A stretch of DNA of 20,184 nt from a virus, in IMG/VR virus record IMGVR_UViG_3300038417_000029, positions 1 through 20,184 of that record; one strand, given 5' to 3'. A program made the position numbers and the translations under genes. This document shows, piece after piece, positions 133-18,380 of the stretch; the stretch's first letter is position 1; each line of letters starts with the position of its first letter. A model generated the notes under the pieces. It ran no database searches and was not told where the DNA came from. It was given only the letters and a program-made list of their open reading frames with translations.

Positions 133-146
133 CCTAGACGTCTAGG
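133..146. repeat. 14-bp perfect palindrome CCTAGACGTCTAGG, copy 1 of 3
   Basis: The sequence is identical to its own reverse complement and to copies at 11360-11373 and 18367-18380. It contains the TAG stop (144-142, minus strand) of the last gene of the glycan cassette. It sits between that gene and the strong leftward promoter. Its centre is GACGTC and it carries CTAG on both sides. There is no loop and no U-tract after it in the direction of the gene it ends, so an operator or other protein-binding site fits better than an intrinsic terminator. Confidence 0.85.
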
Positions 147-642
147 GTTTTCGCGGGACGCAACCATGGCTGGGCCAGTGGTCCCCCAGGTGCGTGACGC
201 CCGAGTAGTGGACGTGCTTGGTCTCGCCCATCCGGTTCAGCGTCAGCGTGAGGCTGTGATCGACCGTGCACCAGTGGCGCGGGTGGTGCTCCGCGTTCGA
301 CCACTTCCCGGCCTCGTCCACCGCTCCCGGGTGCCGTCGCATGAGTTCGGCGCGGAAGCGCGCGCACCCCAGCCCGGCGTAGTCGCCTCCTAGGTACGGG
401 TACGCCACCGAGCACCAGGGCTCGGGGCAGGCGTCCAGCTCGTCGAGGATGGTGGGCGACACGACGATGTCCTGCTCGATGTTGCAAAAGTCCTGGCCGT
501 TCGCCCACATGTCGCGGAAGTAGCGCCAGTAGGACTGGTCGCTCCGGGAGACGTCGAGGCGCTGGAACTCGCGGCCGGTCTTGTTGAGCGCGACGACCAC
601 CTTGGCGCTCATCGGGGGCACGTAGGCGAGCACGACAATCAT
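142..642 (-). CDS. Glycosyltransferase-like protein, paralogue of the 5565-6131 gene
   Basis: A 166-residue protein starting at ATG 642-640, which overlaps the upstream stop (ATGA). An N-terminal beta-strand (MIVVLAYVPP) is followed by an EQDI motif at 56-59, CPEPWC at 72-77, GLGCARF at 90-96 and a His-rich C-terminus. The same ordered motifs occur in the protein at 5565-6131: EQDI, CAEPWC, LGCVRF, then a His-rich tail. The two are therefore diverged paralogues bracketing the cassette. The layout resembles small GT-A glycosyltransferases with EQD in the place of a metal-binding DxD, but I recognise no named family. The role is inferred from surrounding glycosyltransferases. Its TAG stop lies inside palindrome copy 1. 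Confidence 0.75.
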   Translation of the reverse strand: MIVVLAYVPPMSAKVVVALNKTGREFQRLDVSRSDQSYWRYFRDMWANGQDFCNIEQDIVVSPTILDELDACPEPWCSVAYPYLGGDYAGLGCARFRAELMRRHPGAVDEAGKWSNAEHHPRHWCTVDHSLTLTLNRMGETKHVHYSGVTHLGDHWPSHGCVPRKP

Positions 643-1265
643 CGTGCCCGCCTCGCCCAGCGCGAGCCGTGGTCGTCGGTCGAGGCGCGCGCCAGGTAGA
701 AGCGGTCCTCCTCGGTCGGCTTCTCATACCAGGGCAGGTGCAGGAGTTCGCACGGCGCTCCCGTGCGGACCGCGGCGTAGTGGAAGTCCGAGCAGGCAGG
801 GTAGAGGGCGAACGTCGTGTCGATGGGCGACATGAACAGGCCCTGCCAGTGCTCGCGCGTCGGGTCGCGCCAGCGCGTCTCGACCTCTAGGCTCGCCTCG
901 TCGATGAACGGCGCGTCGATACGGAGCCCCAGGCCGACCTTCGGCACGCCGGTCGTCGCCAGCACCTTGGCGAGGTAGGCGACCACGTCCAGGGGACACT
1001 CCGGGACTGGCACCACGTCGGGGTCGGTGTAGACGTAGGGCTCATCGGGGACCAGCCCGGCCTTCCACAGCGCCTTGGAGCCGAGGTTCTCGCCGAGCCT
1101 GACCACCTCGTGCGGCGTCGTCGCGTAGTAGTCAAGCAACGGCGGCCACGCCGAGTCGTTGTCGAGAAACGTGATGCGGTCGTGCCCGGCCTCCTCCAGC
1201 CAGGCGACGAGGCGCTTCATGCAGTTCAGGCGGTCGCGCGCGCAGATGAAAACCGGCACGGTCAT
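639..1265 (-). CDS. Putative glycosyltransferase with a TDPDV motif
   Basis: A 208-residue protein. ATG at 1265-1263 overlaps the upstream TGA (ATGA); an upstream in-frame start at 1376 is rejected because it would lie wholly within the preceding gene. The N-terminus MTVPVFICARDRLNCMKRLV is a typical GT-A nucleotide-sugar-binding beginning. FLDNDSAWPPLLDYY follows at about 33-47. YTDPDVVP near residue 80 carries the DxD-type metal site. SPIDTTFALY and LPWYEKPTEEDRFY lie in the C-terminal half. The pattern matches a group of bacterial GT2-like capsule or O-antigen glycosyltransferases. The sugar donor and acceptor cannot be told. It is coupled to genes on both sides by 4-nt overlaps. Confidence 0.8.
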   Translation of the reverse strand: MTVPVFICARDRLNCMKRLVAWLEEAGHDRITFLDNDSAWPPLLDYYATTPHEVVRLGENLGSKALWKAGLVPDEPYVYTDPDVVPVPECPLDVVAYLAKVLATTGVPKVGLGLRIDAPFIDEASLEVETRWRDPTREHWQGLFMSPIDTTFALYPACSDFHYAAVRTGAPCELLHLPWYEKPTEEDRFYLARASTDDHGSRWARRAR

Positions 1266-1753
1266 CGCTGCGCCAGCACCCGGACATCGACGCCGGTCTC
1301 GTCGGTCTGCCAGCGCCGGAACCCCGCGGCGCGCAGCCAGTCGTCGAGGGCGTCCGGCGAGACATTCGCGTACCACTCGCCGGGGTGCGGTCCCCTGTCA
1401 CTCCCGTCGGCGGCGTGGGGCGGGCGTCCCGGTCCAGCCGTCGTCAGGATCAGCCACCCCCCGGAACCGAGCAGGCGGGCCGCGGCGGCGACGATGGCCC
1501 CCGCGTGGTCGGAGTGCTCCAGCGTCTCGCAGCACACGACCAGGTCGACCGGCACCGGGTGCTCGTAGTCGGCCGCGTCGCCGACCACGTCCACGCCTGG
1601 CCCCGCGAGGAGGTCGACGCCCGTGTAGTCGGTGCCCGCGAACAGACCGCGCACCGAGCCGTTCACGTCGAGCGCGCCGAACTCGACGACGACGCGGGGC
1701 GTGCCGATCTCGCCGAGGCAGCGCACGACCCACGCGAAGGCCGCGTCGTGCAT
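1262..1753 (-). CDS. Class I SAM-dependent methyltransferase
   Basis: A 163-residue methyltransferase of the Methyltransf_11 type. Motif I is degenerate: VVVEFGALD at 21-29, followed by VNGSVRGLF. An acidic ribose-binding Asp is at 47 (YTGVDLL). GDAADY at 58-63 is the adenine-binding region. DLVVCCETLEH (70-80) is the usual motif IV, and GGWLILTTAGPG follows at 98-109. It begins at ATG 1753-1751, sharing one base with the epimerase stop (TGATG). In a sugar cassette the likely target is a sugar or sugar nucleotide, but the sequence does not show the substrate. The protein is shorter than many family members and has little room for a substrate-recognition lid. Confidence 0.85.
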   Translation of the reverse strand: MHDAAFAWVVRCLGEIGTPRVVVEFGALDVNGSVRGLFAGTDYTGVDLLAGPGVDVVGDAADYEHPVPVDLVVCCETLEHSDHAGAIVAAAARLLGSGGWLILTTAGPGRPPHAADGSDRGPHPGEWYANVSPDALDDWLRAAGFRRWQTDETGVDVRVLAQR

Positions 1754-2727
1754 CAGATCGCCGCCCGCACCTGGTCCTCGACCCAGGCGTAGGTCCGCTC
1801 CATCCCGGCTTCGAGCGAGATCGTCGGCTGCCAGCCGGTCGCCTCGGTCATCGCCGTGCCGTCGCAGTCGCGCTCGCGGACCCCGAGCGGCTTCGTCGGG
1901 TCGTAGACGCGCTTCAATGTCGGCACCCCGGCGATTGACTCGACCAGCGCCAGTAACTCTTCAATCGTCACGGAGCCGGTCGCCCCGATGTTCGTCGGCT
2001 CGGCACGATCTGAGTCGATCAGGCGCAGCACCCCGTCTACGAGGTCATCGACGTAGAGGAAACTCCGCCGTTGCGTCCCGTCGCCCCACACCTCGACCTC
2101 ACGCCCTCCGGTCAGCTTGGCGACGGCGACCTTGCGGCAGAACGCCGCCGGGACCTTCTCGCGGCCGCCCTGCCACGTCTCGTGCGGGCCGTAGACGGTG
2201 TGGAAGCGGGCGACGCGGGTCTCCAGCCCGTAGTCCTCGCGGAAGTGCCGGCACATCCGCTCCGAGGTCAGCTTCTCCCAGCCGTAGCCGTCCTCGGGGT
2301 CAGCCGGGTAGGCGTCCTTCTCGCGTAGCGCGTAGTTCAGCACCGAGCCGTCCTGGCGGTCCTGCCGGTAAACGCAGGCCGAGCTGGCAAAGAAGTACCG
2401 CCCGACGCCTTCCCGCTTGGCCGCCATCAGCAGATGCGTGTTGATCAGGATGTTCAGCATGCAGGCGGCCTTGTTCAGCGCGATGAACCCCATGCCCCCC
2501 ATGTCGCAGGCGAGGTTCACGACCGTCGAGCAGCCTTCGACGGCGTCGTCACACTCATCAGCGAGTGAGAGGTCCGCTTCCCAGTTAGCCTTCCCAGGTT
2601 GCCACCACTCGCCGAGGGGCTTGATATCGACGCCGAAGACCTCGCGCCCCTCGGCTTCCAGCCGCTTGACGAGATGCCCGGCGATAAACCCACCGGCCCC
2701 TGCCACGAGAACCCGCCCGTCCGTCAT
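1753..2727 (-). CDS. NAD-dependent sugar-nucleotide epimerase, GDP-mannose 3,5-epimerase-like
   Basis: A 324-residue extended short-chain dehydrogenase. The Rossmann motif GAGGFIAGH lies at 10-18 and the acidic NAD-binding residue in VDIK at 33-36. NLACDMGGMGFI (71-82), SSACVY (115-120), YGWEK (148-152), GGREKVPAAFCRK (187-199) and WGDGTQRRSF (214-223) closely match, from memory, the signature blocks of plant GDP-mannose 3,5-epimerase. Cys118, Tyr148, Lys152 and Lys191 fall at spacings matching that enzyme's catalytic Cys, Tyr, Lys and Lys. The family converts GDP-D-mannose to GDP-L-galactose or GDP-L-gulose through a C4-keto intermediate. The best inference is a GDP-hexose 3,5-epimerase supplying a donor to neighbouring transferases. 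A 4-epimerase or dehydratase is less likely because both epimerisation residues are present. ATGA junction upstream, TGATG downstream. Confidence 0.88.
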   Translation of the reverse strand: MTDGRVLVAGAGGFIAGHLVKRLEAEGREVFGVDIKPLGEWWQPGKANWEADLSLADECDDAVEGCSTVVNLACDMGGMGFIALNKAACMLNILINTHLLMAAKREGVGRYFFASSACVYRQDRQDGSVLNYALREKDAYPADPEDGYGWEKLTSERMCRHFREDYGLETRVARFHTVYGPHETWQGGREKVPAAFCRKVAVAKLTGGREVEVWGDGTQRRSFLYVDDLVDGVLRLIDSDRAEPTNIGATGSVTIEELLALVESIAGVPTLKRVYDPTKPLGVRERDCDGTAMTEATGWQPTISLEAGMERTYAWVEDQVRAAI

Positions 2728-3404
2728 CGCAGTGCCCTCCTCAGCTTCTCGACATCCGCGGCACGCTCCGCGGCATAGTCCGCGTAACGCTCGTGCGTCC
2801 GGTCGCGCTCACGCCTCATGGCGTTGTCCCGATAGGTCTGGTCGAACTCGACGCCGAGGCTGGGGTCGTCCGGGTGCATGTGCTGCGTGAACAGCTCCGG
2901 CAGGTAGATGGTCCGGTTGACCGCTTGGGCGAGCTCGAACACCCAAACGTCGACCATGTCCTGCGTGAACACCTCCGGGTGCGGGTAGAGGTAGCCGAGC
3001 ACTTCGCACCACTCACGGCTCAGGAAGGGATGGGACGCATGAACCTGGTTGCGAAATCCGTCGCGGCCGTACACCAAGACCATCCGGTCGGGGACCGACC
3101 CGAACGCCGCCTCGACCATGACGTCCCAACCGGGAGTGCGGAACACGACGTCGTCGCCCATCGGCGCCAGGATGTCGCCCTTGGCGCCGACCCACGCCGT
3201 GTTCCAGAGCTGGTTCGGGCACTCGCGCGGCCCGACGACCACCGGGCCGTAGGTCTGATCGGCCAGCGCACGGACGCTCGGGGCGTCGTCGTCGTCGACG
3301 CACCACACGACCTCGATCCTCCCTGTCGTGGTGCTGTCGAGGCTGTCGAGCAGCCGCGCAATGTTGTGAGGTCTCCCGCGTGTCGGGACAAGCAGCGAGA
3401 TCAC
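2724..3404 (-). CDS. GT2-family glycosyltransferase, paralogue of the 4059-4739 gene
   Basis: A 226-residue GT-A glycosyltransferase. GTG at 3404-3402 overlaps the FkbM stop (GTGA) and places the hallmark VISLLVPTRGRP at the N-terminus, like its paralogue. An earlier GTG at 3431 would add nine residues and is less likely. CVDDDDAP near 35-42 is the nucleotide-binding acidic motif and MGDDVVF near 82-88 the metal-binding motif. The C-terminus is charged and helical (repeated Arg/Glu after about residue 195). It shares GDDVVFRTPGWDVMVE exactly with its neighbour, and near-identical DNA there, pointing to duplication or gene conversion. It probably acts on phage proteins or sugar intermediates in the host cytoplasm; the substrate is unknown. 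Confidence 0.87.
   Translation of the reverse strand: MISLLVPTRGRPHNIARLLDSLDSTTTGRIEVVWCVDDDDAPSVRALADQTYGPVVVGPRECPNQLWNTAWVGAKGDILAPMGDDVVFRTPGWDVMVEAAFGSVPDRMVLVYGRDGFRNQVHASHPFLSREWCEVLGYLYPHPEVFTQDMVDVWVFELAQAVNRTIYLPELFTQHMHPDDPSLGVEFDQTYRDNAMRRERDRTHERYADYAAERAADVEKLRRALR
3111..3162. repeat. Direct repeat within two glycosyltransferase genes, copy A
   Basis: These 52 bases match 4443-4494 at 50 positions, in the same orientation and reading frame, encoding the GDDVVFRTPGWDVMVE region. Only two substitutions separate the copies, although the genes differ extensively on both sides. Confidence 0.85.
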
Positions 3405-4066
3405 GGGTAGGCCACCCAGGTCTCGGGCCACGAGTTGCGCTCGGTGCGGTAGCCGTACTCGGCAAGGGTCGCGAACAGCTCGCCGGTTCGTTGGCCGCGT
3501 TCATCCTCCCAGCACTCGAAGATCACGACCGGCCTGTTTTGGCGAATGGTCTCATAAGCACCGCGCAGAACGTCAACCTCCGCGCCCTCCACGTCGAGTT
3601 TGAGCAGGCGCGGCGCGAGGCTGAAGTGGTCGAGGGAACGGACCTCGACGGTCTCACTGACGGGGCCACCAGGGAACTCGCACACGATGGACGCCATGCC
3701 GCCGCCGATCTCCGGCGCGGTCAGATGGCCGCTCCCGGCTGCCGCGCCGAGCGCGAAAGGCCAAAGAGACACGGCGAGACCGTTCTGGCGAATCGCTGCG
3801 CTAAGAAGTGCGCGGATGGGCGGGTTGGGCTCGAATGCCACGACGGGCATCCCGGCTGCGGCGAACGGGAGCGTCCACTGGCCGACATGCGCGCCCACGT
3901 CCACGAACAAGCCCTCGCCACCGAACTCGCGCCACGCCCAGTCGATCAACGGCGCTTCGGGCAGCCCACCGGGACTGCCGGCGAAGACCGCGCGCATGTC
4001 CTCGGAAGGCAGCAAGAACAGGGGGCTCGTCCCGCAGCAGCTCTCGGACGGCCGGTACTCAACCAT
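3401..4066 (-). CDS. FkbM-family methyltransferase
   Basis: A 221-residue SAM-dependent methyltransferase. VDVGAHVGQW at 55-64 is motif I, FEPNP at 78-82 the acidic loop, and LLKLDVEGAEVDVL at 154-167 the block most characteristic of the FkbM family (KxDVEGxE). PVVIFECWED follows at 179-188. Family members commonly O-methylate sugars and polyketide-linked groups, so sugar O-methylation fits its place between two GT2 genes. It begins at ATG 4066-4064 inside the end of the upstream gene (8-nt overlap) and ends in a GTGA overlap with the next gene. Confidence 0.9.
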   Translation of the reverse strand: MVEYRPSESCCGTSPLFLLPSEDMRAVFAGSPGGLPEAPLIDWAWREFGGEGLFVDVGAHVGQWTLPFAAAGMPVVAFEPNPPIRALLSAAIRQNGLAVSLWPFALGAAAGSGHLTAPEIGGGMASIVCEFPGGPVSETVEVRSLDHFSLAPRLLKLDVEGAEVDVLRGAYETIRQNRPVVIFECWEDERGQRTGELFATLAEYGYRTERNSWPETWVAYP

Positions 4067-4739
4067 GCGACGCGATCACCGCTCGCAGGGTCGCGATCTC
4101 CTGTTCACGTTCGGGGAGCGTGTCGATGTAGAGCTGCGGGCAGTTGTCGCGCACGCCGCGCGCCACCCCCTCGCGGTAAGTGTCGTCGTCCGGTGCTTTC
4201 CCGAGGTTGGGGTGAAGGTGCTCGGTGAACAGTTCGGGCAGGAACACGCGCCGGCCGAGCGCGTCCGCGACCTCGGTGAGCCACAGGTCCGGGTAGTCAT
4301 GGCTGAAGTACGGCGGGCAGAACCGGCCGACAGCATCCACCCAGCGACGGTGCAGGAACCCGTGCGTGCCGAGCGCCGGCCCGTGGGCTCCGTCCCTGCC
4401 ATTCACGAACACGATCCGGTCCGGCCACTTCGCGAACTCGTCCTCGACCATGACGTCCCAGCCGGGAGTACGGAACACGACGTCGTCGCCCATCATGCCC
4501 ATGATGTCGCCGCGGGCGACCTCCGCCAGCTTGTTCCAGTAGTCCGTGAACATGATCCGCTCCCCCGTGTGAATCTCAGCGCAGTCGAGAGCCACGTACT
4601 GCGGGAGAGCCGGGTCGTCGAGATCGACGTAGGCGAGCACTTCGATGTCGAGTGGGGATGCCGCCAGGCTGAAAGCGCTCTCGGACAACCGCCGGAGGTT
4701 CTCCGGTCGGCCACGGCTGGGGCACAGCAACGAGATCAC
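4059..4739 (-). CDS. GT2-family glycosyltransferase
   Basis: A 226-residue protein beginning VISLLCPSRGRPENLRRL. Two consecutive GTG codons are available at 4742 and 4739. The second gives the GTGA overlap with the upstream stop seen for its paralogue, so it is preferred. Acidic residues in YVDLDDP (near 37-43) and MGDDVVF (near 80-86) are the GT-A donor and metal motifs. HDYPDLWLTEV and LPELFTEHLHPN lie in the acceptor half. Paralogue of 2724-3404: the blocks GDDVVFRTPGWDVMVE and LPELFTxHxHP are shared, while the rest is strongly diverged. Probably transfers a sugar in the same pathway; substrate unknown. Confidence 0.87.
   Translation of the reverse strand: MISLLCPSRGRPENLRRLSESAFSLAASPLDIEVLAYVDLDDPALPQYVALDCAEIHTGERIMFTDYWNKLAEVARGDIMGMMGDDVVFRTPGWDVMVEDEFAKWPDRIVFVNGRDGAHGPALGTHGFLHRRWVDAVGRFCPPYFSHDYPDLWLTEVADALGRRVFLPELFTEHLHPNLGKAPDDDTYREGVARGVRDNCPQLYIDTLPEREQEIATLRAVIASHG
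4443..4494. repeat. Direct repeat within two glycosyltransferase genes, copy B
   Basis: Counterpart of 3111-3162, matching at 50 of 52 bases. Similarity drops sharply at the right end, consistent with a short tract of gene conversion or strong selection on the metal-binding block. Confidence 0.85.
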
Positions 4740-5440
4740 CACGGCGTCTCCCCTCGAATCACGCGGGCATCTGCCCCGTCGTCTCTGTAGCGCTTGCAGT
4801 CCGTCGGCCGCTCCGGATCATCGACCGGGACGAAGACGTAACCGGCGAACGCTAGGCGCTGCCAGAACAAGGCGTCGGCTTCGCGCCACATCTGCGGCGT
4901 CGGCGGGCGGTCTGGAAACCCGCCAGCCATGTCAAACGCCGTGTGCGTCACCATGACCGAGTTGAGGTCGACCTTGTGGTAGGCGTCGGTCAAGACTCCT
5001 TGGCAGTGGCGGATCGCCTCCGTGCCGTGCAGCACGCGGTCGCCGTACTCCCCCGGCATCGGGACCAGCCGCTGCGCGCCGTAGACCACGTCGTTGCCCT
5101 CGTCGAGCTTCCGCACCATCCGTTCTAACCGATCCGGGTAGTAGAAGTCGTCGCCGCAGAGGAAGGTCAGATGGCCCTCGGCGATTTCCGCGCAGAGGTT
5201 GAAGATCGTCGCGTACCGGACCGACTGCCGGCGCTCGTCCTCGGTCGTGCCGAGATGGACGACGAACACGCGCGGGTCACGTCCCGCGGCGTCGAGTATT
5301 TGCATGACCCGCGGGTCGGCTGAGTTGTCATCGACGGCGACCAGCTCCCAGTCCTCGTAGGTCTGGGCTATGACCGAGCCGATGGCCGCGGGCAGGCAGT
5401 CGGCCGCTTCGTACACGGGCATGATGACGGTGACGGTCAT
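4736..5440 (-). CDS. GT2-family glycosyltransferase
   Basis: A 234-residue GT-A glycosyltransferase starting MTVTVIMPVYEAADCLPAAI, the classic GT2 N-terminus. ATG at 5440-5438 overlaps the upstream stop (ATGA); longer in-frame starts would only add sequence antisense-like in composition. VAVDDNSADPRV at about 33-44 is the nucleotide-binding motif and LTFLCGDDFYYPDRLERM near 90-107 contains the metal-binding DD. The C-terminal half has VTHTAFDMAGGFPD, the usual acceptor-domain GGF motif, and a later WREADALFWQRLA acidic block. It is the most canonical glycosyltransferase of the cassette. It overlaps the next gene by 4 nt, so the two are probably translationally coupled. Confidence 0.92.
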   Translation of the reverse strand: MTVTVIMPVYEAADCLPAAIGSVIAQTYEDWELVAVDDNSADPRVMQILDAAGRDPRVFVVHLGTTEDERRQSVRYATIFNLCAEIAEGHLTFLCGDDFYYPDRLERMVRKLDEGNDVVYGAQRLVPMPGEYGDRVLHGTEAIRHCQGVLTDAYHKVDLNSVMVTHTAFDMAGGFPDRPPTPQMWREADALFWQRLAFAGYVFVPVDDPERPTDCKRYRDDGADARVIRGETPW

Positions 5441-5568
5441 CGGTGCAGCTTGCAGAAGTCGCCCGCCCAGTAATCGCGTTGCCTCCCGCAGCGAGGTTCG
5501 CGGCACACGGGTACTCCGCTCCACGCGGTGCGGAGGCGCCGCAGGAGGTAGGCCAGGTAGTCCCTCAT
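5437..5568 (-). CDS. 43-residue Cys/His small protein
   Basis: A very short gene with ATGA overlaps at both ends: ATG 5568-5566 overlaps the upstream TGA, and its TGA 5439-5437 overlaps the next ATG. The product has a basic helix (RDYLAYLLRRLRTAW) followed by C22-x4-C27-x11-C39-x2-H42, a plausible zinc-binding site. It lacks any domain I recognise. The junctions make it much likelier to be real than its length suggests. A longer in-frame start at 5628 is rejected because of the coupling. It could be an accessory subunit for a neighbouring glycosyltransferase, but nothing in the sequence shows that. Confidence 0.65.
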   Translation of the reverse strand: MRDYLAYLLRRLRTAWSGVPVCREPRCGRQRDYWAGDFCKLHR

Positions 5569-6131
5569 GGGCTGTACCGCCCCTCCCTGTCCACCGGATA
5601 CGCCTCGTGATCGGTGCCACATGAGCACAGACCGTGGAACACATGGTGCTGGCGCACTTCGGGCCAGTGTAGGTGCGGGGAGTACCCCCGGTCACGCAAT
5701 GCCCCGAGGACCCGCGCGTCGAGCCTCCGCCAGTCCCCGCGGGCGAGTCCCGGCGCGTCGTCAATGGCGCCCACGTAGGCGGGCAGGTCCGGCTCGGCCG
5801 CGAGCAGTGCCGCCGAGAACCGGACGCAGCCGAGCGCGCCGTAGAGGACCGGGTCGCCGCCCGCGCCGCCGTAGCCGGGGCCGTTGTAGGGGAAGACGCA
5901 CCACGGCTCCGCGCAGCGCCGGAACTGCGAGAGCACCGTGCCGTGGAGCTCGATGTCCTGCTCGACGAGAGCGAACGCCTCGCCAGCGGCCCACCACTCG
6001 GCCCAGGTGCGGCTGTAGGCCGTCGTGTCGCCCTCGCGGACTGTGACGACCACCGCCCCCGGTGCGAAGCGCCGCAGGGCCGCGAGCGCCAGCGGGTGGG
6101 CGTGGACCGCTACGAAGCAGACGGCGGGCGT
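5565..6131 (-). CDS. Glycosyltransferase-like protein with unresolved start
   Basis: Conserved sequence runs from about 6125 to the TGA at 5567-5565. An N-terminal strand AVCFVAVHAHPLALAAL is followed by VEQDIEL, CAEPWC, LGCVRF and a His-rich end (HLHWPEVRQHHVFHG). The ordered motifs match the 166-residue paralogue at 142-642. The start is a problem: no ATG, GTG or TTG lies just before the first strand. The nearest upstream ATG (6329) would create a 220-nt overlap with low-complexity Arg/Pro/Ala sequence, and the first GTG inside (6053) would delete the strand. The left boundary is firm; 6131 (an ACG codon) only approximates the beginning. A non-standard start, a frameshift from the upstream gene or a base error are all possible. 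Confidence 0.7.
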   Translation of the reverse strand, partial: TPAVCFVAVHAHPLALAALRRFAPGAVVVTVREGDTTAYSRTWAEWWAAGEAFALVEQDIELHGTVLSQFRRCAEPWCVFPYNGPGYGGAGGDPVLYGALGCVRFSAALLAAEPDLPAYVGAIDDAPGLARGDWRRLDARVLGALRDRGYSPHLHWPEVRQHHVFHGLCSCGTDHEAYPVDREGRYSP

Positions 6132-6553
6132 GCGCCGTCGTCCCCCAGCCCGCGGTTGGCCGGTCCCCGCCGCGGGGCGGGCGTAGGGCGGGGACGCGCG
6201 GCCGGGCGCGGGGGCGCGACGAGCCGCGGGCGCGGGAGCACGGGCACGACGGTCTTGCCCAAGACCGACTCGGCCTCGTCCATGAACCCCGCCCGGACCT
6301 GGGCCTGGGCGTCGGGCTGCGTCATCCATGTGGACTGGTCGCCTCGGCCGACCGTGACGTGCATCCGCAGGTACGTCTCGACCACGTCGGGCGGAGCGTC
6401 GATCCAGCCGTTGTCGTCGGCCTCGAACTCACGCTCGCCGTGGACGATCTTGGTCGTACCCGAGCCGGTCCACTGGTAGGTGACAACGCTGTGGCTGGGG
6501 TTGACCGGGCTCTTTTCGCGCCAAGTGTGCTTGGCGAAGTGCTTGATGAACAT
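6110..6553 (-). CDS. 147-residue protein of unknown function following the capsid gene
   Basis: Starts at ATG 6553-6551 behind a strong ribosome site (GGGAGGCAGGA). The first 100 residues look like a compact domain: MFIKHFAKHTW, then VTYQWTGSGTTKIVHGEREF, then WIDAPPDVVETYLRMHVTVG. From about residue 105 it becomes a Pro/Arg/Ala-rich tail. I do not recognise the family. Position right after the major capsid gene and its hairpin suggests a head protein such as a decoration or connector component, but that is inference from gene order. Its 3' end overlaps the beginning of the glycosyltransferase-like gene in the -1 frame. Confidence 0.8.
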   Translation of the reverse strand: MFIKHFAKHTWREKSPVNPSHSVVTYQWTGSGTTKIVHGEREFEADDNGWIDAPPDVVETYLRMHVTVGRGDQSTWMTQPDAQAQVRAGFMDEAESVLGKTVVPVLPRPRLVAPPRPAARPRPTPAPRRGPANRGLGDDGARPPSAS

Positions 6554-11043: not shown

Positions 11044-11364
11044 ATGAAAATCCTGCATGGTCACGTCGGCAGCGAGATCAGCGTCCGAGTTCTGGACCCC
11101 GCGGCAACGCCGGAAGACCCGCTTGGCTACGAGTTCGTCCCTGACCACGGCTTTTTCGCACGTCACGGCGACTCCAGCTTTGCGGTCGACCCAGATGGGA
11201 CGCTGTACGTCTATGGCGACATGAGCAAGCCGCCCCATCACTCCTACCGCCCGCAGGAATGGGCGTGGGTGGAGGACGAGAACAACAACGGCGCGTTCAA
11301 CACCACCCTGCCAGCCGAGGCGCACAGGTTCGGGAGTCGTTACCTAGCGCCGCCAATTCCCTAG
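11044..11364 (+). CDS. 106-residue protein on the opposite strand, moron-like
   Basis: The only credible plus-strand gene. ATG 11044 is preceded by CGGAGGGAACACC, a strong Shine-Dalgarno site. The product is rich in His, Asp, Glu and aromatics, unlike the Arg/Pro-rich products of shadow frames. Segments include LDPAATPEDPLGYEFVPDHG (17-36), GTLYVYGDMSKPPHHSYRPQ (52-71) and EWAWVEDENNNGAFNTTLP (72-90). No family is recognised. Its TAG stop lies within palindrome copy 2. A single gene of opposite polarity with its own ribosome site, inserted between head genes, fits a moron: an extra gene not needed for assembly, often expressed independently. Function unknown. Confidence 0.78.
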   Translation: MKILHGHVGSEISVRVLDPAATPEDPLGYEFVPDHGFFARHGDSSFAVDPDGTLYVYGDMSKPPHHSYRPQEWAWVEDENNNGAFNTTLPAEAHRFGSRYLAPPIP

Positions 11365-11373
11365 ACGTCTAGG
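11360..11373. repeat. 14-bp perfect palindrome CCTAGACGTCTAGG, copy 2 of 3
   Basis: Identical to the copies at 133 and 18367. It contains the TAG stop (11362-11364) of the plus-strand gene and lies 4 nt from the end of the convergent HAD gene. The 14 bases before it on the plus strand (AGCGCCGCCAATTC) match those before copy 1 (AGCGCCGGGAATTG) at 11 of 14 positions. Confidence 0.85.
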
Positions 11374-11377
11374 CATT

Positions 11378-11740
11378 TCACTCCCGCGTCGCCCACGGCA
11401 ACAGGCACAGGCACCCAGGGGCGGCGTCCAGCGCGGTCTTCAGGTTCTTGGCTCTGTTGTCCACGAACAGCACGACGTGGTTGTCCGCGATGTAGAGCGC
11501 CTTGTTCGATGCTGTCGGCTTGGCGACGATGGTCACCTCGTCATACAACGCGCCGTAGCCCAGCTCGGCCAGGTACTCCTGCTTCTGGGCGATGTTCTCC
11601 GCGGTGACGGTGTCCTGCTCGTCACCCGTGAGCACGACGATGTGCCAGTTCCCGGCCTTTTTCATCGCGCCGAGCAGCGGGACGAACGTCGAGACGTAGC
11701 TGTCCAGCGTACCGTCGAGGTCGAAGCAGGCGACAGACAC
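11378..11740 (-). CDS. HAD-superfamily phosphatase
   Basis: A 120-residue minimal HAD hydrolase. Starting at GTG 11740-11738, it begins VSVACFDLDGTLDS, motif I with nucleophile Asp7 and acid/base Asp9. HIVVLTGDEQ (33-42) holds motif II Thr38. Lys80 (or Lys74) is the motif III candidate and FVDNRAKN (92-99) is the motif IV acidic pair region. There is little space for a cap domain, so it may act on a macromolecular or nucleotide phosphate. The GTG overlaps the preceding small gene (TAGTG) and has GGTGGAG upstream; a longer ATG start at 11872 is rejected for that reason. It ends convergently with the plus-strand gene. Confidence 0.8.
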   Translation of the reverse strand: MSVACFDLDGTLDSYVSTFVPLLGAMKKAGNWHIVVLTGDEQDTVTAENIAQKQEYLAELGYGALYDEVTIVAKPTASNKALYIADNHVVLFVDNRAKNLKTALDAAPGCLCLLPWATRE

Positions 11741-11898: not shown

Positions 11899-12101
11899 CA
11901 GGCGGGCCGGAGCCGGACGACCATCGTGGCCTCGACGGGCAGCTTGTGCTTCTTCGGCTTCTGGCCAGCGGGCTGGGGCTCCTGGTACTGGATTTCGAGC
12001 GACAGGCCCGACAGCGCCCAGCCCTCCTTCTGCAGCTTCACGATGCCGAAGATGACCGAGTCGATGGTGTCCTCGGGGTCGATGCGCTTGGCGGAGGCCA
12101 T
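11898..12101 (-). CDS. 67-residue protein of unknown function
   Basis: ATG 12101-12099 shares one base with the previous stop (TGATG), and its own TGA is shared with the next ATG. The sequence begins MASAKRIDPEDTIDSVIFGI, continues VKLQKEGWALSGLSLEIQYQ, and has a Lys/Pro-rich loop (PAGQKPKKHKLP) before a final strand, VEATMVVRLRP. The alternating pattern suggests a small alpha/beta or beta-sheet domain. It is placed among minor head-region genes; function unknown. Confidence 0.75.
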   Translation of the reverse strand: MASAKRIDPEDTIDSVIFGIVKLQKEGWALSGLSLEIQYQEPQPAGQKPKKHKLPVEATMVVRLRPA

Positions 12102-12346
12102 CAGCGTTTCCGCAGTTTCATGATCGCGCTCTTGGGGATGGTCATAAGGCCCGCGACGTGTCCAGTGCTCGAAATTGAAGACGCGACCACGATGTAGCCG
12201 TGCTTCTCTTTGACGATGTAGCCGCTCGTCACGATCTTGCTGGGAGCCGAGTCGTAATTGGCAAGGTCAGTCCAGACCGTAGTTCTGCCACCAGGCGGAC
12301 CAGTGCTGTCCGTCCACTCCACCGTGACGCGCTTCTTCTTGGCCAT
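12101..12346 (-). CDS. 81-residue small beta-rich protein
   Basis: ATG 12346-12344 directly abuts the stop of the phospholipase-D-like gene (TAG-ATG), and its own stop overlaps the next start. The basic N-terminus MAKKKRVTVEW leads into repeated strands: GRTTVWTDLANYDSAP, then KIVTSGYIVKEKHGYIVVAS. It ends KSAIMKLRKR. No family is recognised. Size, charge and location suit a minor structural or DNA-associated protein, but this is not demonstrated. Confidence 0.75.
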   Translation of the reverse strand: MAKKKRVTVEWTDSTGPPGGRTTVWTDLANYDSAPSKIVTSGYIVKEKHGYIVVASSISSTGHVAGLMTIPKSAIMKLRKR

Positions 12347-12889
12347 CTAGTAGCTCGGCTTCTCCGTCGGGGGCTGGGGCTGGTTGGCGACGACCCAGGC
12401 CAGGTCCTTCCCGATTTCGGCCGCGAACGCCGCGGCGCATTGGGCCGAGTCGATGAACCAGGCATTGTTCGCTTCCTTCGATGCGCTGGCCGTGACGTTG
12501 TAGCTCCCCGTGAACGTCCAGGCCGTGCCGTCTGGGTAGATGGCGACGATGACCTTGTTGTGCAGGATGTTCCCGTCAACCGAGCTGGTGCCGATGCCCC
12601 ACTGGTCGGCGGGCAGCGCCTGAATGAGCGCGTCCACCAGAGGCTTTTCCTCGCGGCCGAAATACTCCGACGAGTCGAACAGGAACCGGGACGCCGGGAC
12701 GGCCTTGCCGATCTGGGTGAGCACCGCGAGGATGTCCGGGTCGTCGATGGAGTAGTTCGACGCCACGACGGTCGCGCCCTTGGCGAGCGCGTCCTGGAGG
12801 CGGGCGAGCAGCGTGTCGTGCGTCTCCTGGCCCTGCTCCGGGCTGAACAGCACCTGGAGCCCCACGATGTCGGTGAATTGCATGGTCAC
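12347..12889 (-). CDS. Phospholipase-D-like (single HKD) protein
   Basis: A 180-residue protein with one PLD-type active-site block: H110-N-K112 in ILHNKVIVAIYPDGTAW, then TFTGSYNVT with G128, S129 and N131. The usual HxKx4D Asp position is replaced: Ile117 sits there, and the next Asp is at 120. A single motif is typical of dimeric Nuc-type PLD nucleases and phosphodiesterases. The N-terminal half (LQDALAKGATVVASNYSIDD) matches the first strand-helix unit of such folds. It starts at GTG 12889 or ATG 12883 behind GGAGGGG, 1 nt past the upstream stop. Activity is uncertain because of the altered motif. It may act on nucleic acid or lipid, or be structural. Confidence 0.75.
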   Translation of the reverse strand: MTMQFTDIVGLQVLFSPEQGQETHDTLLARLQDALAKGATVVASNYSIDDPDILAVLTQIGKAVPASRFLFDSSEYFGREEKPLVDALIQALPADQWGIGTSSVDGNILHNKVIVAIYPDGTAWTFTGSYNVTASASKEANNAWFIDSAQCAAAFAAEIGKDLAWVVANQPQPPTEKPSY

Positions 12890-12890
12890 G

Positions 12891-13217
12891 TCAGCCCCTC
12901 CCTGGTACGACGAGCCGCGGGCCCGCGGCGCGGTTCCTTGCCATCTCCTTCGCCGCTTCGACCTCGGCGTCGTGCATCTGGCGCGCCTGGGGCTCGATCT
13001 GGTCCAGCGCCTCGGCGCGGCGTTCCTCGTAGAGCACGCACGCCTCGACGTGGGCCGGTGAGCCCGGTCCGCCCAGCAGCTGCTCCAGGAGCGCCACGAT
13101 GTAGACGTTCGACATGCCCGCGAGAGCCTTGCCCGTCTCGGCGTACATCGTCCGCGCCCGCTCGTCGTTCGCGTCGCGTAGCTGGGCGAGCAGCGCCGCC
13201 CGTTCCTGGTCAGGCAT
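12891..13217 (-). CDS. 108-residue helical protein of unknown function
   Basis: ATG 13217-13215 lies 8 nt inside the end of the previous gene, with GAAGGGGTGAGG upstream. The product is almost entirely helical and charged: MPDQERAALLAQLRDANDER at the start, VYIVALLEQLLGG near 37-49, and a long Glu/Arg/Ala helix towards the end. No family is recognised. It directly follows the portal block. The 5' extension to 13334 is Arg/Pro-rich and belongs to the overlapping gene's other frame. Confidence 0.75.
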   Translation of the reverse strand: MPDQERAALLAQLRDANDERARTMYAETGKALAGMSNVYIVALLEQLLGGPGSPAHVEACVLYEERRAEALDQIEPQARQMHDAEVEAAKEMARNRAAGPRLVVPGRG

Positions 13218-13413
13218 CCGCCTCACCCCTTCCTGTCTCCGCCAGCGTATTCGCCCGCCCGAGCAAGTCGCGGATACCGCGCCTGCGGGCCTGCTCCGCC
13301 TTGGCGCGCATCGCGGCCGTGGCCGACGGCGCACCCGGCGCCTGCGGGATGGCGCGGACGGTGACGCGCCCGCGGTGCTCGACGGGGGGCGTGCGACGCG
13401 AGGCGCGGCTCAT
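13210..13413 (-). CDS. 67-residue basic small protein
   Basis: ATG 13413-13411 overlaps the portal-fusion stop (ATGA), and the 3' end overlaps the next gene by 8 nt. The product is Arg/Ala-rich: MSRASRRTPPVEHRGRVTVR, then a predicted helix MRAKAEQARRRGIRDLLGRA. No recognisable domain. The overlaps at both ends support translation. Confidence 0.7.
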   Translation of the reverse strand: MSRASRRTPPVEHRGRVTVRAIPQAPGAPSATAAMRAKAEQARRRGIRDLLGRANTLAETGRGEADA

Positions 13414-16400
13414 TCGCCGCCCTCCTCGGTCGATGGCGCGCCGGGGATGTTCGCCGGGGCAAGCGCGCAGCGGCAGTTGGGATGGATCGGCACGTCAGGC
13501 GCGTCGTCAATCGGGTAGGGGTTCGAGTCCTCGATCTCCTCGCACTCCTCGCAGGGGTCGAACGTGAGCAGGTCCACCTCGGCCACGCCATTCTCGGTGT
13601 AGGTGTCGATGCTCGCCGCTGTAAATGACCGGGCGCACTCAGTATCCGCGATGGTGAACGCCCGCTGCGGGTCGGCGATGACGTCCGACATGGCCGCGGC
13701 GATGGTGGCGGGCGGGTCGCCCGCGGCGATGCCGTCGGCGAGCGCGGTGCCGATGCGGTCCATCGCCGACCCGGTGATGCCCTGGATGGTGATGCCCCGC
13801 GCGTCGAGGAGCGTCGCCAGCCCGCCCCCGGCGTCCTGCAGCGCCGCGTCGGACCAGCCGGGGGTCCACGCCTCCCAGTCGCGCGAGACGGTCGTCAGCA
13901 TGTCGTCGGGGAGCCACGAGGGGGCGCGGGCGTCCACGCCCAGCGCGGCGCGTGCGGCCTTGACCCCGCCCCCGTAGGCGTCGGCGTACATCTGGGCGAA
14001 GACCGCGCCCGTGCGGTCGGCGTCAATCGAGACGTTCGCCTCGACCGCGGCCCGCGCCTCGCTCGCTCCGCTCGTCGGGGGTGTAGGGGGTGAAGCCTTG
14101 GTAGCCCTCGTCACCATAGAGGCCACCGCGGCGTCGATCCCCTTCGTCCCCGCCCGCAGCGCCTCGGCTATCTTCGGCGCGTACGCCTGGGGGATTCGGT
14201 GGCGGAGGGCCGAGCCCGGCCACCGTGAACCTTTTGGGTCGGCTTTGGCCGCCTTGAAGACCGCGCGCACCTGCTCCTTGGTCTTCGCCTTGGCGAGCGC
14301 CTTGTAGATGCGGTGGCCGACCTCGACCGGGATCACCTCGTCGTGGAAGTAGCGCGGCTTGCGCCCGCGGCGGACCGCGAGGAGGGCGTTCGACTGCCAT
14401 TGGCCGAGCACCTTCTGTAGCTGCTCCTCGGCGTCGTCGTCGTCCTCGTCGTCGAAGCCGGTGAGGTCGACGCCCGTGAAGCCCGTCTCCGCGGTGATGC
14501 CCTCGGTCGGTGGCGCGCACTTGAGCAAGTTGAGGTCATCGCCCGACACCAGATAGGCCACGCCCCCGCCGTCTTCGGGGTCGATACCGTAGATGCCGTC
14601 CTTGTAGAGCTGGATGGTGCCGGTAATCGTCGCCCCGCCCGACGTCACGAACGAAACGCGCGAACCGTCGCCCACCTGGTCGTAGCTAATCGCCTTGGCG
14701 ACGCGGACCATCTTGGCAGCCGTCCCGGCCTGGGAGATGACCACCCAGTCGCAGGTGTGGCACTCCTCGCGCAGGTTCGGCATCGCCGGGATGTCCGCAG
14801 GCTCCAGCCAGCAGACGACCTCGATGTTGTCCTGGTCCGGGTCGTCGGGGTTCAGCACGCCGCGGTTCTCCGGGTCTGGGTTGAGGTGCAGCATGGCCTC
14901 CGAGGCGATGACGTAGACGAACCCGCGGTAGATGCCGTTGGGGCTGGTCCACGAGCCGTCGAAGTAGCCGTCGGGCAGCGGCTCGCCGACCTCCTCCTGC
15001 CACTCCCGGACCGCGGCCTGCAGCGGTGTCTCGTCGCCCTCCATGTGGCCGCCCGGGAACTCGAACGTGCCGGCCGCGGGGTCGTCGGGCGTGAAGGCGC
15101 GCTGAATCATGAGCACGCGGCCAGTGTCCATCGCCTTCACGACCAGCCCGCCGACGTCGACGACCGACTTGGCCGCGGGCGCGGTCTTGGGCGGCGCGGT
15201 GGAGCCTGCCGGGGGCGCGACGTTGGTCTCGTCGTGGGCCGGTTCCTGGCCCGGCGCGGGCGCGGCCGGGGGCGGAGTGCGCGGGCCACGCGGCGGGACC
15301 GGCACGGGTGGCAGGGCGCCAGGTTGACTAGGCGGCAGACTGGGTTGACCAGGCAGAGAGACGTTCGGGGGCGGTGCCAGTTCTCCCGGAGCGAGCCATT
15401 CCTTCGGTGTGACCCTTTCCAAGAACGGGGCCCCGGTCGTAATGTCGTAGCCGCCGAGAGCCTTGGCCCAGGCCATCAGGATCGCGTTCGGAATGACACC
15501 AGCTCGGCCGCCAGCGTTGTACGAGCGCGGCATCCGGTTCTCTGGGTCGACCGGCAGACCAAGAATCTTCTCGCGCGGCTCATCGGACGAGATGACCCCA
15601 GCGTCAATCCAAATCTTCTGCTCCTGGGCGACCATCAGGCGGTCTTCTTTTTCCTGGCCGAGGTCGAAATAGCAGGCGATGGGCAAGCCCAGCTCGTCCT
15701 GTGTGATCGGGTTCAGGAACACGTCCTCGATGAAGCCGGTCCGGGGCCGCGTCGAGATGCGGAACTGTTCGTCGACCTGCGTTTCCGAGGTCGCGCGGTT
15801 GACGTCGTCCAGGATGCCGAGGTCCTGCGGGGTCCGGTGGAACATCGAGATGGTCCGGCGGGCCAGGTACTCGGGGAACTTGGCGTCGAACGTCGTCGGC
15901 TTGTAGCTCGTGAACTTGGCACCGAACGGGAGCCAGCGCACCCCCCAGCGCTTCGTCTGGTCGCCGAACGTCCAGTCGTCCCACAGCTCCTGCCACTGGC
16001 CGAGCTGGTCGGGGTCGGACTGCTCGGGCGGTGCCTCGGCGAACCCCTCCGGGACCTGGCCGCCCGTGAACATGTTGAGGAAGTGCCACTGGAACCGCAC
16101 GTCGGTGTTGGCATTGAGCAGGATGCACTCGATGGGCGCCAGGCCGTAGCGGGGGTCTTCGGCGCGGGACGTGTACGGCTCGTAGATGACCAGCGTCTCG
16201 TCGGTCCAGCCCCACGGCAGCCCCTCGACGAACTGGGCGAAGGCCGGCGCGGGTGCGTCGGGGCGCTCGCCCCAGTAGTCGATGATCGGTGCCCACATCC
16301 GCCCGTCCGGCACCTGGACCGCCTTCAGCTTCCCGCTCTTGTCCCGGACCTTGTAGAGCATCCCGCAGTCGTAGGCGAGCTGCTGGTAGAGCAGCTTGGT

Positions 16401-16982
16401 CAAGAACACCCGCCAGGGGTGCTTGCCGTCGGGCTTCTTCCAGAACTGCTTGGCCTGGGCGATTTCCTTCGACACGTCGCCCTCGTAGCCGTCCACTGCC
16501 CGGAACAGGAGCGGCATCGAGCAGAGGTCGGCGATGATGTGCGAGATGCAGATTTGGGCCATGTCGTAGCCCTCGACGATCTGCGTCAGCGTGCGGAACG
16601 GGATGCGCCCGGACCTCGTCTCGACGGCGATGTTCGAGCCGGGGATGTAATCAGCCAGCCGCGGGGGCTCGTTGTAGCCGTGGAACGGCCGGATGGGCGT
16701 CCCCGGGCCGAGCGGGGGCTGGAAGGAGATGCCCTGCTCGATGAGCGCCAGTTCGATGTCCGCGGGCGTGAGCGTCGTGCGCGGCGCGTAGGCGCCCGAG
16801 GCCGCGGCGGCAACGGCGGCGAGGTTGACCCGGCCCGAGGCGATGTCGTCGGCCGTGTGCGTCGCCACGATGGCCGAGGCCGCGGTGCGCGCCGCGTCCT
16901 TCACGGCTTTGGCCTGGACGACCTTCTCACCGGCCGATGGGCGGTAGCGGGTGCCCCTGACGGCGTCGCGGACGAGGCTCAC
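13410..16982 (-). CDS. Portal-Nudix-MuF fusion protein
   Basis: A 1190-residue fusion. Residues about 80-520 are a portal protein (SRIPFRTL-type core, then YEPYTSRAEDPRYGLAPIE at 268-286 and ISMFHRTPQDLGILDD at 378-393). Residues 530-605 are a Pro-rich linker. Residues about 608-748 are a Nudix hydrolase with a perfect box G645-x5-E651-x7-R659-E-W-Q-E-E-V-G666. An acidic run follows at 843-852, then KALAKAKTKEQVRAVFKAAK (894-913). Residues about 970-1190 are MuF-like, ending with C1144-x2-C1147 and HPNCRC (1167-1172). The portal forms the DNA channel at one capsid vertex and MuF proteins are minor head components. Portal-MuF fusions are known; an intact Nudix between them is unusual. GTG 16982 overlaps the upstream stop (GTGA). 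Confidence 0.9.
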   Translation of the reverse strand: MSLVRDAVRGTRYRPSAGEKVVQAKAVKDAARTAASAIVATHTADDIASGRVNLAAVAAAASGAYAPRTTLTPADIELALIEQGISFQPPLGPGTPIRPFHGYNEPPRLADYIPGSNIAVETRSGRIPFRTLTQIVEGYDMAQICISHIIADLCSMPLLFRAVDGYEGDVSKEIAQAKQFWKKPDGKHPWRVFLTKLLYQQLAYDCGMLYKVRDKSGKLKAVQVPDGRMWAPIIDYWGERPDAPAPAFAQFVEGLPWGWTDETLVIYEPYTSRAEDPRYGLAPIECILLNANTDVRFQWHFLNMFTGGQVPEGFAEAPPEQSDPDQLGQWQELWDDWTFGDQTKRWGVRWLPFGAKFTSYKPTTFDAKFPEYLARRTISMFHRTPQDLGILDDVNRATSETQVDEQFRISTRPRTGFIEDVFLNPITQDELGLPIACYFDLGQEKEDRLMVAQEQKIWIDAGVISSDEPREKILGLPVDPENRMPRSYNAGGRAGVIPNAILMAWAKALGGYDITTGAPFLERVTPKEWLAPGELAPPPNVSLPGQPSLPPSQPGALPPVPVPPRGPRTPPPAAPAPGQEPAHDETNVAPPAGSTAPPKTAPAAKSVVDVGGLVVKAMDTGRVLMIQRAFTPDDPAAGTFEFPGGHMEGDETPLQAAVREWQEEVGEPLPDGYFDGSWTSPNGIYRGFVYVIASEAMLHLNPDPENRGVLNPDDPDQDNIEVVCWLEPADIPAMPNLREECHTCDWVVISQAGTAAKMVRVAKAISYDQVGDGSRVSFVTSGGATITGTIQLYKDGIYGIDPEDGGGVAYLVSGDDLNLLKCAPPTEGITAETGFTGVDLTGFDDEDDDDAEEQLQKVLGQWQSNALLAVRRGRKPRYFHDEVIPVEVGHRIYKALAKAKTKEQVRAVFKAAKADPKGSRWPGSALRHRIPQAYAPKIAEALRAGTKGIDAAVASMVTRATKASPPTPPTSGASEARAAVEANVSIDADRTGAVFAQMYADAYGGGVKAARAALGVDARAPSWLPDDMLTTVSRDWEAWTPGWSDAALQDAGGGLATLLDARGITIQGITGSAMDRIGTALADGIAAGDPPATIAAAMSDVIADPQRAFTIADTECARSFTAASIDTYTENGVAEVDLLTFDPCEECEEIEDSNPYPIDDAPDVPIHPNCRCALAPANIPGAPSTEEGGE

Positions 16983-17215
16983 TCAGACGCCTCGTGGCGG
17001 CTCAACAGCCCGCCGAGCCGCGCGAGCAGCTTCCCCACGGCCCCGACCGCGTCTATCTCACCCCCGTCCATCGCGAAGCCGATGAGCACGAGCACGGCCG
17101 CGGCGACGAGCAGCCCGGCGTTCGACCCGGCGAAACGCCAGGTCGCGGCGTCAGCGACGCCGAGGCCGACCAGCTGCACGAAGCCACTCTGAAAGCGAGT
17201 CGAGAATCCGGGCAA
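16979..17215 (-). CDS. 78-residue protein with one membrane helix
   Basis: Start TTG 17215-17213 is chosen because GAAGGAGG (17227-17220) sits 4 nt before it. The N-terminal third is amphipathic (MPGFSTRFQSGFVQLVGLGV). Residues about 33-49 (NAGLLVAAAVLVLIGFA) form a transmembrane helix, followed by an acidic loop and a C-terminal helix. A holin has similar size but usually lies near an endolysin, absent here. A membrane-associated minor head or ejection protein is equally possible. It overlaps the portal-fusion start by 4 nt. Confidence 0.7.
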   Translation of the reverse strand: MPGFSTRFQSGFVQLVGLGVADAATWRFAGSNAGLLVAAAVLVLIGFAMDGGEIDAVGAVGKLLARLGGLLSRHEASE

Positions 17216-17284
17216 CGCGCCTCCTTCGGTGACTAGCTGCCCCTCAGTGTAGGACCGCGGCCGGAGCGCAGCGGTGATTGTCAG

Positions 17285-18346
17285 CTACGGCGCGAAGCCG
17301 ATGGTCTGGTGCTCAATGCCTCGCCCGATCTGGGAATGGCGCTGCGCCTCGTACAGCTCGGCCAGCGTGGACTCCTCGCGGACAGCGCCCTCGCTCCACT
17401 CCGTTGCCTCCGCGGCCGTCAGTTTCGGGACGACGATGTTGGCGATGCACCGTCCGGGCCGCATGATCGCCTGGTGGAGCTTCCCGATCCGCACGTTCGT
17501 CGTCATCAGGATCAGCACGTTCAGTCCTTGGCCGATGATCCCGTCGCCAAGATTCAAGAGCCGCGCCACGGACTGACCGACGTTCGCCTTGGCGTCTGGC
17601 GTCAGGAACTCCTCGGCGTCCTCGACCACGATCAGCCGCCAGCGATTCGCGTCCTCGCCCTGATCGAGAAGAACCTGCATGAGATACCCACCACGGCCGA
17701 ACATTTCCTCGGCGTCGATGACGTAGATCATGTCGCACCACCCCCGCCAGGCGTCGGCGATGGCGCGGACCGCGGTCGTCTTCCCTGTCCCGGCCGGGCC
17801 GTGCAGGAGCAGGATGCGCCCCGAGCCGATGTCGGCGGGCGTGAGCGCCATCAGTCTCGCGATTTCCTCGCGGGCCAGCGCCGAGTAGTTCCCGGCGATG
17901 TCCTCCCACGGAGGCACGGCAAGATTGCGCTGGCGACTCCGGGCTCCATCGCCTGCCCAGTACCAAAACTCGACGCGTGCCGTCCCGCGCTCGGCCGTCT
18001 CCACCGGTGGAAGCAACTGGAGCACTTCCGCCGCCAATGTCGCTGCACGCTCGGCAGCGTCGCCACCGTCAACGGTCACACGGACCACCATGTGATTCTC
18101 GCCCCATGAGTTCGCGTAGACCCAGGCATCAGAGCCAACGCGCCACGCCCGGTAGCGCTCGTTATCACTGAGGTTGTGCCACGAGGCGACAACGTCGCCC
18201 TTGACCGTCATCTCGTCCGCGCGCTTCTTGGTCCGCCGTTCTGCGAACACCTCGTGCGGTTGCTTCATCGCGGCGATGGCCTCGTAGTAGCAGATCAGAA
18301 CCCGATTCGGGTTGTAGGCGACGTCGGCCGTGCAAACAGTCTCCAT
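17285..18346 (-). CDS. AAA+ ATPase between terminase and portal genes
   Basis: A 353-residue protein. Residues 1-150 form an N-terminal alpha/beta domain I do not recognise with confidence; it resembles the DUF5925-AAA architecture of actinobacteria. The AAA+ core has Walker A GPAGTGKT (183-190), Walker B RLIVVEDAEEF (237-247), a sensor-1 region LILMTTNV (278-285) and RPGR (296-299) with a probable arginine finger. The Walker B acidic pair is E242-D243. It is a P-loop remodelling enzyme, not a second terminase: no nuclease domain is present. ATG 18346 follows the duplicated GACAGGGAGGCAGG leader, so it is translated independently of the terminase gene. It may assist packaging or portal assembly, or act on host proteins; neither is shown. 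Confidence 0.88.
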   Translation of the reverse strand: METVCTADVAYNPNRVLICYYEAIAAMKQPHEVFAERRTKKRADEMTVKGDVVASWHNLSDNERYRAWRVGSDAWVYANSWGENHMVVRVTVDGGDAAERAATLAAEVLQLLPPVETAERGTARVEFWYWAGDGARSRQRNLAVPPWEDIAGNYSALAREEIARLMALTPADIGSGRILLLHGPAGTGKTTAVRAIADAWRGWCDMIYVIDAEEMFGRGGYLMQVLLDQGEDANRWRLIVVEDAEEFLTPDAKANVGQSVARLLNLGDGIIGQGLNVLILMTTNVRIGKLHQAIMRPGRCIANIVVPKLTAAEATEWSEGAVREESTLAELYEAQRHSQIGRGIEHQTIGFAP

Positions 18347-18347
18347 C

Positions 18348-18361
18348 CCTGCCTCCCTGTC
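18348..18361 (-). promoter_or_regulatory. Ribosome-binding leader of the AAA+ gene
   Basis: Minus-strand GACAGGGAGGCAGG ends 1 nt before ATG 18346 and is identical to the leader before the gene starting at 6553. It lies between palindrome copy 3 and the start codon. Confidence 0.7.
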
Positions 18362-18366
18362 AATAC

Positions 18367-18380
18367 CCTAGACGTCTAGG
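18367..18380. repeat. 14-bp perfect palindrome CCTAGACGTCTAGG, copy 3 of 3
   Basis: It contains the terminase stop (TAG, 18378-18376 on the minus strand) and ends 20 nt before the AAA+ start codon. It is therefore placed between two genes of the same polarity, unlike copy 2, which lies between convergent genes. No U-tract follows it. Confidence 0.85.

Follow-up and report, generated by a model that had tools for sequence, protein, structure and literature searches.

The 20,184-nt stretch analysed here (the window) is the entire fragment held as IMG/VR record IMGVR_UViG_3300038417_000029 (G000), from an uncultured phage, and it carries three copies of a 14-bp palindrome, CCTAGACGTCTAGG. Our comparisons, made on sequences and a predicted structure, indicate that these palindromes are probably operators of a dimeric, phage-encoded regulator with a helix-turn-helix (HTH), LmbU-like and of ParB/Noc type, which would use them as a roadblock and for feedback on itself. 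That the palindromes are operators appears well supported, and a roadblock combined with autoregulation is what we infer from their placement. Two findings support the identity of the binder: each of two independent lineages (the window family and an unrelated phage, G123) has its palindrome both within the regulator gene and at gene ends, and the in-gene position is conserved without conservation of sequence.

The three window copies were confirmed as exact (Table 1, cores), and no others were found in the window within 2 mismatches; at up to 3 mismatches it contained 4 matches, versus 0.66 +/- 0.79 in shuffled sequence. A scan of 2.9 million viral contigs located the exact 14-mer in about 21, of which 13 form one related GC-rich group (68% GC) with up to 8 exact copies per contig. 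The remaining contigs held single matches in unrelated sequence, and we took the lone ones in L013, L016, L018, L019, L025, L026, L037 and L040 as unrelated, like a longer palindrome in a Cellulomonas metagenome-assembled genome (MAG; L062). The 54-kb contig G001 has 10 non-coding copies, one-mismatch ones included, and a position weight matrix scan revealed no weaker, degenerate copies beyond those already known. The contigs of this group are incomplete, and their genes were called with a home-made caller trained on them.

Outside this group the element is rare. Among 50,697 phage records none matched the window at the DNA level; named phages matched neither a 30-nt site query, in a low-sensitivity search, nor the regulator, and we found nothing relevant in the literature on the 14-mer or on similar phage palindromes. 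Bacteria were nearly devoid of it, with 3 matches in one flanked-pattern scan of 85k genomes. In a set of 98 genomes, comprising MAG bog_793 and its relatives, it occurred only in bog_793, mostly on phage contigs, and its absence from the 97 relatives of this sole MAG with matches led us to reject a host element. The presence of phage contigs of the group in bog_793, an Acidimicrobiaceae MAG from a bog, is only a hint at the host. In the same MAG, contig C8 (L092) contains an intact tRNA-Leu(CAA) at 6376-6459 and, 1.1 kb on, a 77-bp copy of its 3' part at 7501-7577 (96% identical), a pair that looks like the attL/attR footprint left by an integrated element; 68 nt past the second tRNA-Leu copy there is an exact copy of the palindrome.

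When 29 distinct contexts were compared in the orientation of transcription, the conserved unit proved to be 22 bp long, AWWS-CCTAGACGTCTAGG-SWWT. A at -4 and T at +4 were invariant (29/29), positions +-2 and +-3 were A or T in 106 of 116 cases despite the 68% GC of these genomes, and +-1 was G or C in 54 of 58; four additional contexts from bog_793 fit the same pattern. Complementarity between the flanks at +-1, +-2 and +-3 was found in 10, 10 and 7 of the 29 contexts, compared with 13.6, 11.8 and 10.2 expected from composition, meaning that the flanks do not extend an RNA stem. Being kept as A/T or G/C classes and unpaired, they mark the unit, as judged from sequence, as a DNA dyad for a dimer and not an RNA hairpin. 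The class preference, which is without orientation, would fit a reading of DNA shape or of the minor groove.

These features also make it very unlikely that the palindrome is an intrinsic, possibly bidirectional terminator, with a 5-bp hairpin and an ACGU loop placed after genes. The location at gene ends and between convergent genes would suit such an element, the core can fold (-4.7 kcal/mol), and one of the three window copies passed a simple terminator scan. However, the sequences of loop and stem hardly vary and show no compensatory changes, of the three stem variants two disrupt pairing on the sense strand, and the bases downstream, read with transcription, are mostly CAAT; the dyad lacks the variable-sequence paired stem and U-tract of an intrinsic terminator. 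True terminators of the form CCTAG-loop-CTAGG do exist in AT-rich phages (CCTAGNNNNCTAGG), but they are single-copy per contig and show a variable loop, a paired extended stem and a T-run. The unpaired flanks, near-invariant loop, missing U-tract and conserved 22-bp dyad all bear out the sequence-only reading, which had preferred the binding site of a dimeric protein over a terminator.

The sites are concentrated at gene 3' ends: 3/3 in the window, 8/10 in G001, 4/4 in G011, 3/4 in G005, 2/3 in G008 and 4/5 in G003. About 5% of random positions would be expected to lie there, and 21% of positions within the intergenic DNA of G001 (binomial P 1e-4), so that placement in relatives, which had been put forward as a test, came out in favour of the proposal. 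Retention at syntenic boundaries was partial, in that the more distant lineage G011 does not keep a site at every boundary. Not one divergent promoter region of these contigs contained a site.

The repeat had also been described as ending its genes in one common register. This is true of the window, where all three copies place TAG at palindrome positions 3-5, but not of the family, whose stops occupy positions 3-5 or 11-13 or immediately precede the palindrome. At site A itself the register depends on which gene is chosen, since an alternative open frame (134-727) uses the other TAG, at positions 11-13, as its stop. Stops within the palindrome are all TAG, except in one mutated copy in G008, in genomes whose stop usage is otherwise dominated by TGA (61 TGA, 14 TAG and 2 TAA in G001). 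As the palindrome offers a TAG to two of the three frames on either strand, the supply of stops may be a by-product.

About half of the sites are tight, with a ribosome-binding site and start codon about 20 nt downstream, often as SWWTTCAGAYAGGAGG. In the others, the spaced sites, the interval contains a promoter-like sequence, such as the TTGACA-17-TATAGT that follows site A, the only sigma-70-like match in the window. An arrangement of the latter kind could mean that the same regulator, in the manner of LmbU at lmbA, activates or represses initiation from a promoter a short way downstream. LmbU acts as an activator (PMC6510168), and the spaced sites A, D, H and K are followed by promoter-like -35/-10 elements starting 15-45 nt downstream. 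We regard this as quite improbable, given that the tight half leaves no room for a promoter, that no promoter lies downstream of convergent site B or of the in-gene copies, and that divergent promoter regions are free of sites.

The distribution recalls the stoperators of cluster A mycobacteriophages, bound by the L5 repressor, which likewise are numerous copies of one short site, scattered across a phage genome close to stop and start codons in narrow intergenic gaps; the 54 kb of G001, with 10 copies at gene ends or close to them, conform to that description. Stoperators, however, are asymmetric 13-bp sites whose orientation follows transcription and to which a monomer binds (PMC9283540), whereas the present site is a palindromic, symmetric 22-bp dyad, down to its A(-4)/T(+4). 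Repeats at gene junctions are also known from cluster K mycobacteriophages, namely the 13-bp start-associated sequences (SAS), restricted to non-structural genes, and the extended SAS (ESAS), 17-bp inverted repeats with spacers (PMC3203893). The sites that lead into a conserved ribosome-binding leader, about half, resemble these; but SAS carry GGGATAGGAGCCC at starts, while here the sequence differs and the dyads lie at gene ends, also among virion genes.

A further copy, with one mismatch, lies inside a gene (G001 28256, G003 12835, G011 799), as CCTAGGCGTCTAGG or CCTAGACGCCTAGG, with A(-4) and T(+4) kept. The window from 10778 to 20184 is identical to G003 1-9407 (100% overlap), which makes it almost certain that the phage of the window carries this gene, some 3 kb to the right of the stretch analysed. 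Its product matched NF038070 (LmbU_fam_TF) with E 9e-25, under the curated cut-off, six phage homologues did so with E 1e-23 to 1e-30, and plasmid homologues carry the same family name. LmbU itself, an HTH regulator, is dimeric and recognises the palindromic CGCCGGCG (PMC6510168, PMC10763038). An AlphaFold model of the candidate (predicted local distance difference test score 83) had 19 best PDB matches that were all ParB, Noc or Spo0J (E 0.05-0.6, probability 0.89-1.00); the similarity is confined to the HTH region, where the AF2 model matches the ParB/Noc DNA-binding domains and Pfam HTH_ParB appears only below threshold. The earlier suggestion that an HTH protein of the phage binds the palindrome has thus acquired a candidate, predicted from sequence and encoded outside the window.

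Ribbon-helix-helix (RHH; HicB/CopG-like) proteins encoded beside sites D, M and O were rejected as binders: upstream they have their own GTATAC or TAGTAT repeats, never the palindrome. Near these three sites (L041, L042, L046, L057) different RHH regulators occupy the position according to lineage; several of the genes have their own upstream repeat, and two products share the C-terminal tail SSKKDxYLRGRKT.

The in-gene copy is spelled CCT AGG CGT CTA GGC or CCT AGA CGC CTA GGC (CCT AGR CGY CTA GGC), mostly rare codons with a joint synonymous frequency of 7e-6. Distant homologues from other phage contigs, about 34-42% identical to the regulator of the window family, showed the same arrangement: in 8 of 9 lineages an in-gene palindrome is centred exactly on the C|G of one conserved Arg codon, 8 codons before an HH pair. 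The palindromes themselves are unrelated in sequence between lineages (AACTTCGGTTCGAACCGAAGTT, AAAGTTGTTACGTAACAACTTT, GTTGTGGTCTCGAAACCACAAC and others), and the encoded amino acids differ except for the Arg. Matched pairs numbered 11/11 in L123 and L124, 10/11 in L127 and L177, 9/11 in L178 and 8/11 in L180, L125 and the window family, and in six of the 8 lineages the palindrome is the best of its gene. Synonymous recoding did not account for these palindromes (combined P 6e-8); the rare codons and the homologues together overturn the idea of a coding coincidence. One LmbU-like phage gene, L184 10001-10456, is interrupted, within the part encoding the HTH, by an in-frame stop (LS*EHH) that its near relatives L182 and L189 lack.

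Chromosomal homologues extend the likeness to LmbU (NF038070; Streptomyces LmbU), which includes significant homology over the DNA-binding core: L129, L159 and L142 have CCCGCCGGCGGG at the corresponding position, and this contains the LmbU motif CGCCGGCG. The candidate differs in being phage-encoded, in its sub-cut-off score, in its recognition sequence and in having sites at gene ends and not at promoters. At the same in-gene place another chromosomal LmbU homologue, L166, has an odd-centred palindrome, TTGTTGTGC-G-GCACAACAA.

In G123 a perfect 22-mer, AAGTTCGTGTCGACACGAACTT, is present at 8077 and 13650, in both cases at the 3' end of a gene between co-directional genes, and one of the two overlaps a stop. 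That each of two unrelated lineages has one palindrome, in the same 22-bp frame, both within the regulator gene and elsewhere argues against recognition of the site by a different protein, of host or phage, with the LmbU-like in-gene palindromes unrelated to it. Two copies on non-phage contigs of bog_793 might suggest such a protein, but the element is otherwise missing from that MAG and from its relatives, and we consider this a decidedly poor prospect.

Several observations weigh against an LmbU-like regulator acting from gene-end operators. The NF038070 scores were 84-106 bits, below the curated cut-off of 125, and in the window family the in-gene copy is imperfect and its own synonymous-recoding test was modest (P 0.026). 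One homologue, L183, has no palindrome; G121/G122, G793 and G795 have only the in-gene one, so gene-end copies are not general; G788/G791/G792 carry several copies, mostly inside genes; and 35 chromosomal homologues mostly showed a weak excess over synonymous expectation. In G001, sites 18493 and 29628 coincide with no called gene end, although frames of 65 and 52 amino acids do end there. Finally, a PF00589 integrase was not found in the family contigs, which are incomplete; there is consequently no sign of temperate life, and a role in lysogeny is unproven.

The predicted fold, the dispersed copies and the intragenic copies of G792-type phages would also agree with ParB/parS-like centromeres or DNA-organising sites, serving partition or condensation and found at gene ends merely because coding sequence is spared there. 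Sites within genes recall the parS within Bacillus subtilis spo0J. We think this unlikely: the sequence homology is to LmbU transcription regulators, Pfam detected neither a ParB N-terminal CTPase domain in the candidate nor a ParA among about 50 G001 proteins, and 3' ends are strongly preferred over other intergenic positions. The candidate would share with KorB/O_B of plasmid RK2, ParB/parS and Noc/NBS a ParB-type HTH fold, dispersed operators and the silencing of genes away from a promoter. KorB, however, is a CTPase clamp possessing the N-terminal domain that the candidate appears to lack, and the operators it binds are located ahead of promoters (PMC11790492).

Certain blocks of homology stop at a palindrome, as at site A for the homology with G001 (window 128 / G001 51722), and at site D different upstream genes are joined to an identical downstream sequence. 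Such cases could reflect recombination at cassette boundaries, the palindrome being a hinge for module exchange, but breakpoints lay within 40 nt of 10/25 palindromes versus 41/182 other gene boundaries, only a mild excess, and no matching recombinase was seen. A hinge is extremely improbable.

For operators of the LmbU-like regulator, in-gene and gene-end sites both lie within transcribed DNA, making an elongation roadblock with negative feedback the simplest common mechanism. A dimer would bind the palindromes and, once bound in transcribed DNA, block elongating RNA polymerase. Transcription units would then be separated by regulated boundaries at the gene-end copies, and the in-gene copy would exert negative feedback on the regulator. 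The function as a repressor-type, stoperator-like roadblock that had been proposed may be right.

Table 1. Positions of the palindromic sites, neighbouring genes and candidate regulator gene (window coordinates unless stated)
Feature	Position	Strand	Remarks
Site A	129..150, core 133-146		22-bp operator-like dyad; supplies TAG of 142-642 (-)
Site B	11356..11377, core 11360-11373		22-bp operator-like dyad between convergent genes; supplies TAG of 11044-11364 (+); ends 4 nt before stop of 11378-11740 (-)
Site C	18363..18384, core 18367-18380		22-bp operator-like dyad between terminase and next gene; supplies terminase TAG; next start codon 20 nt on
Promoter-like TTGACA-17-TATAGT	83..111	-	just past site A; 11/12 consensus matches
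Gene with stop in site A	142..642	-	166 amino acids; homologous in G001/G011
Small gene ending in site B	11044..11364	+	absent from relatives G005, G008
Gene convergent on site B	11378..11740	-	from gene caller
Putative ATPase gene	17285..18346	-	starts 20 nt after site C, behind GGGAGGCAGGGATG
Terminase large subunit gene	18376..19923	-	PHROG terminase families, E 1e-32; ends in site C
Candidate regulator gene	G003 (L046) 12486-13124	-	212 amino acids; 210-212 across family

Among the gene labels proposed from the sequence alone, that of the terminase was supported by PHROGs, whereas the open reading frames called glycosyltransferase-like and HAD returned nothing; the putative ATPase matched only families without a named function, plus two marginal nucleotide-metabolism matches. 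A diverged 151-nt direct repeat (3057-3207 and 4389-4539, 77%) lies in two minus-strand genes, perhaps as duplicated domains. In G001 (L041) a Peptidase_A4 (acid glutamic peptidase) gene, 14489-15343 (-) (PF01828, E 6e-28), directly follows a palindrome. Before G001 genes that have no palindrome, a promoter-like leader recurs as TCGGCTACCGT and, elsewhere, as TCCTACACT (L041 15366 and 18581; L042 6479).

Beyond this family, we tentatively entertain a more general picture, in which LmbU-like, ParB-fold phage regulators keep a palindrome fixed at a codon of their own gene, with a lineage-specific sequence. In some lineages this palindrome would have come to occupy gene ends too, where the bound dimer would divide up transcription across the whole genome as a symmetric roadblock and feed back on its own gene. 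If true, it would add to phage regulation a symmetric class of LmbU/ParB-type operators at gene ends. The in-gene sites that vary between lineages would represent a natural experiment in the evolution of DNA recognition, with differences in specificity that are directly testable. Because each regulator holds its own site at a known codon, the binding sites of the LmbU family, including those of regulators from antibiotic clusters, might be read from sequence.

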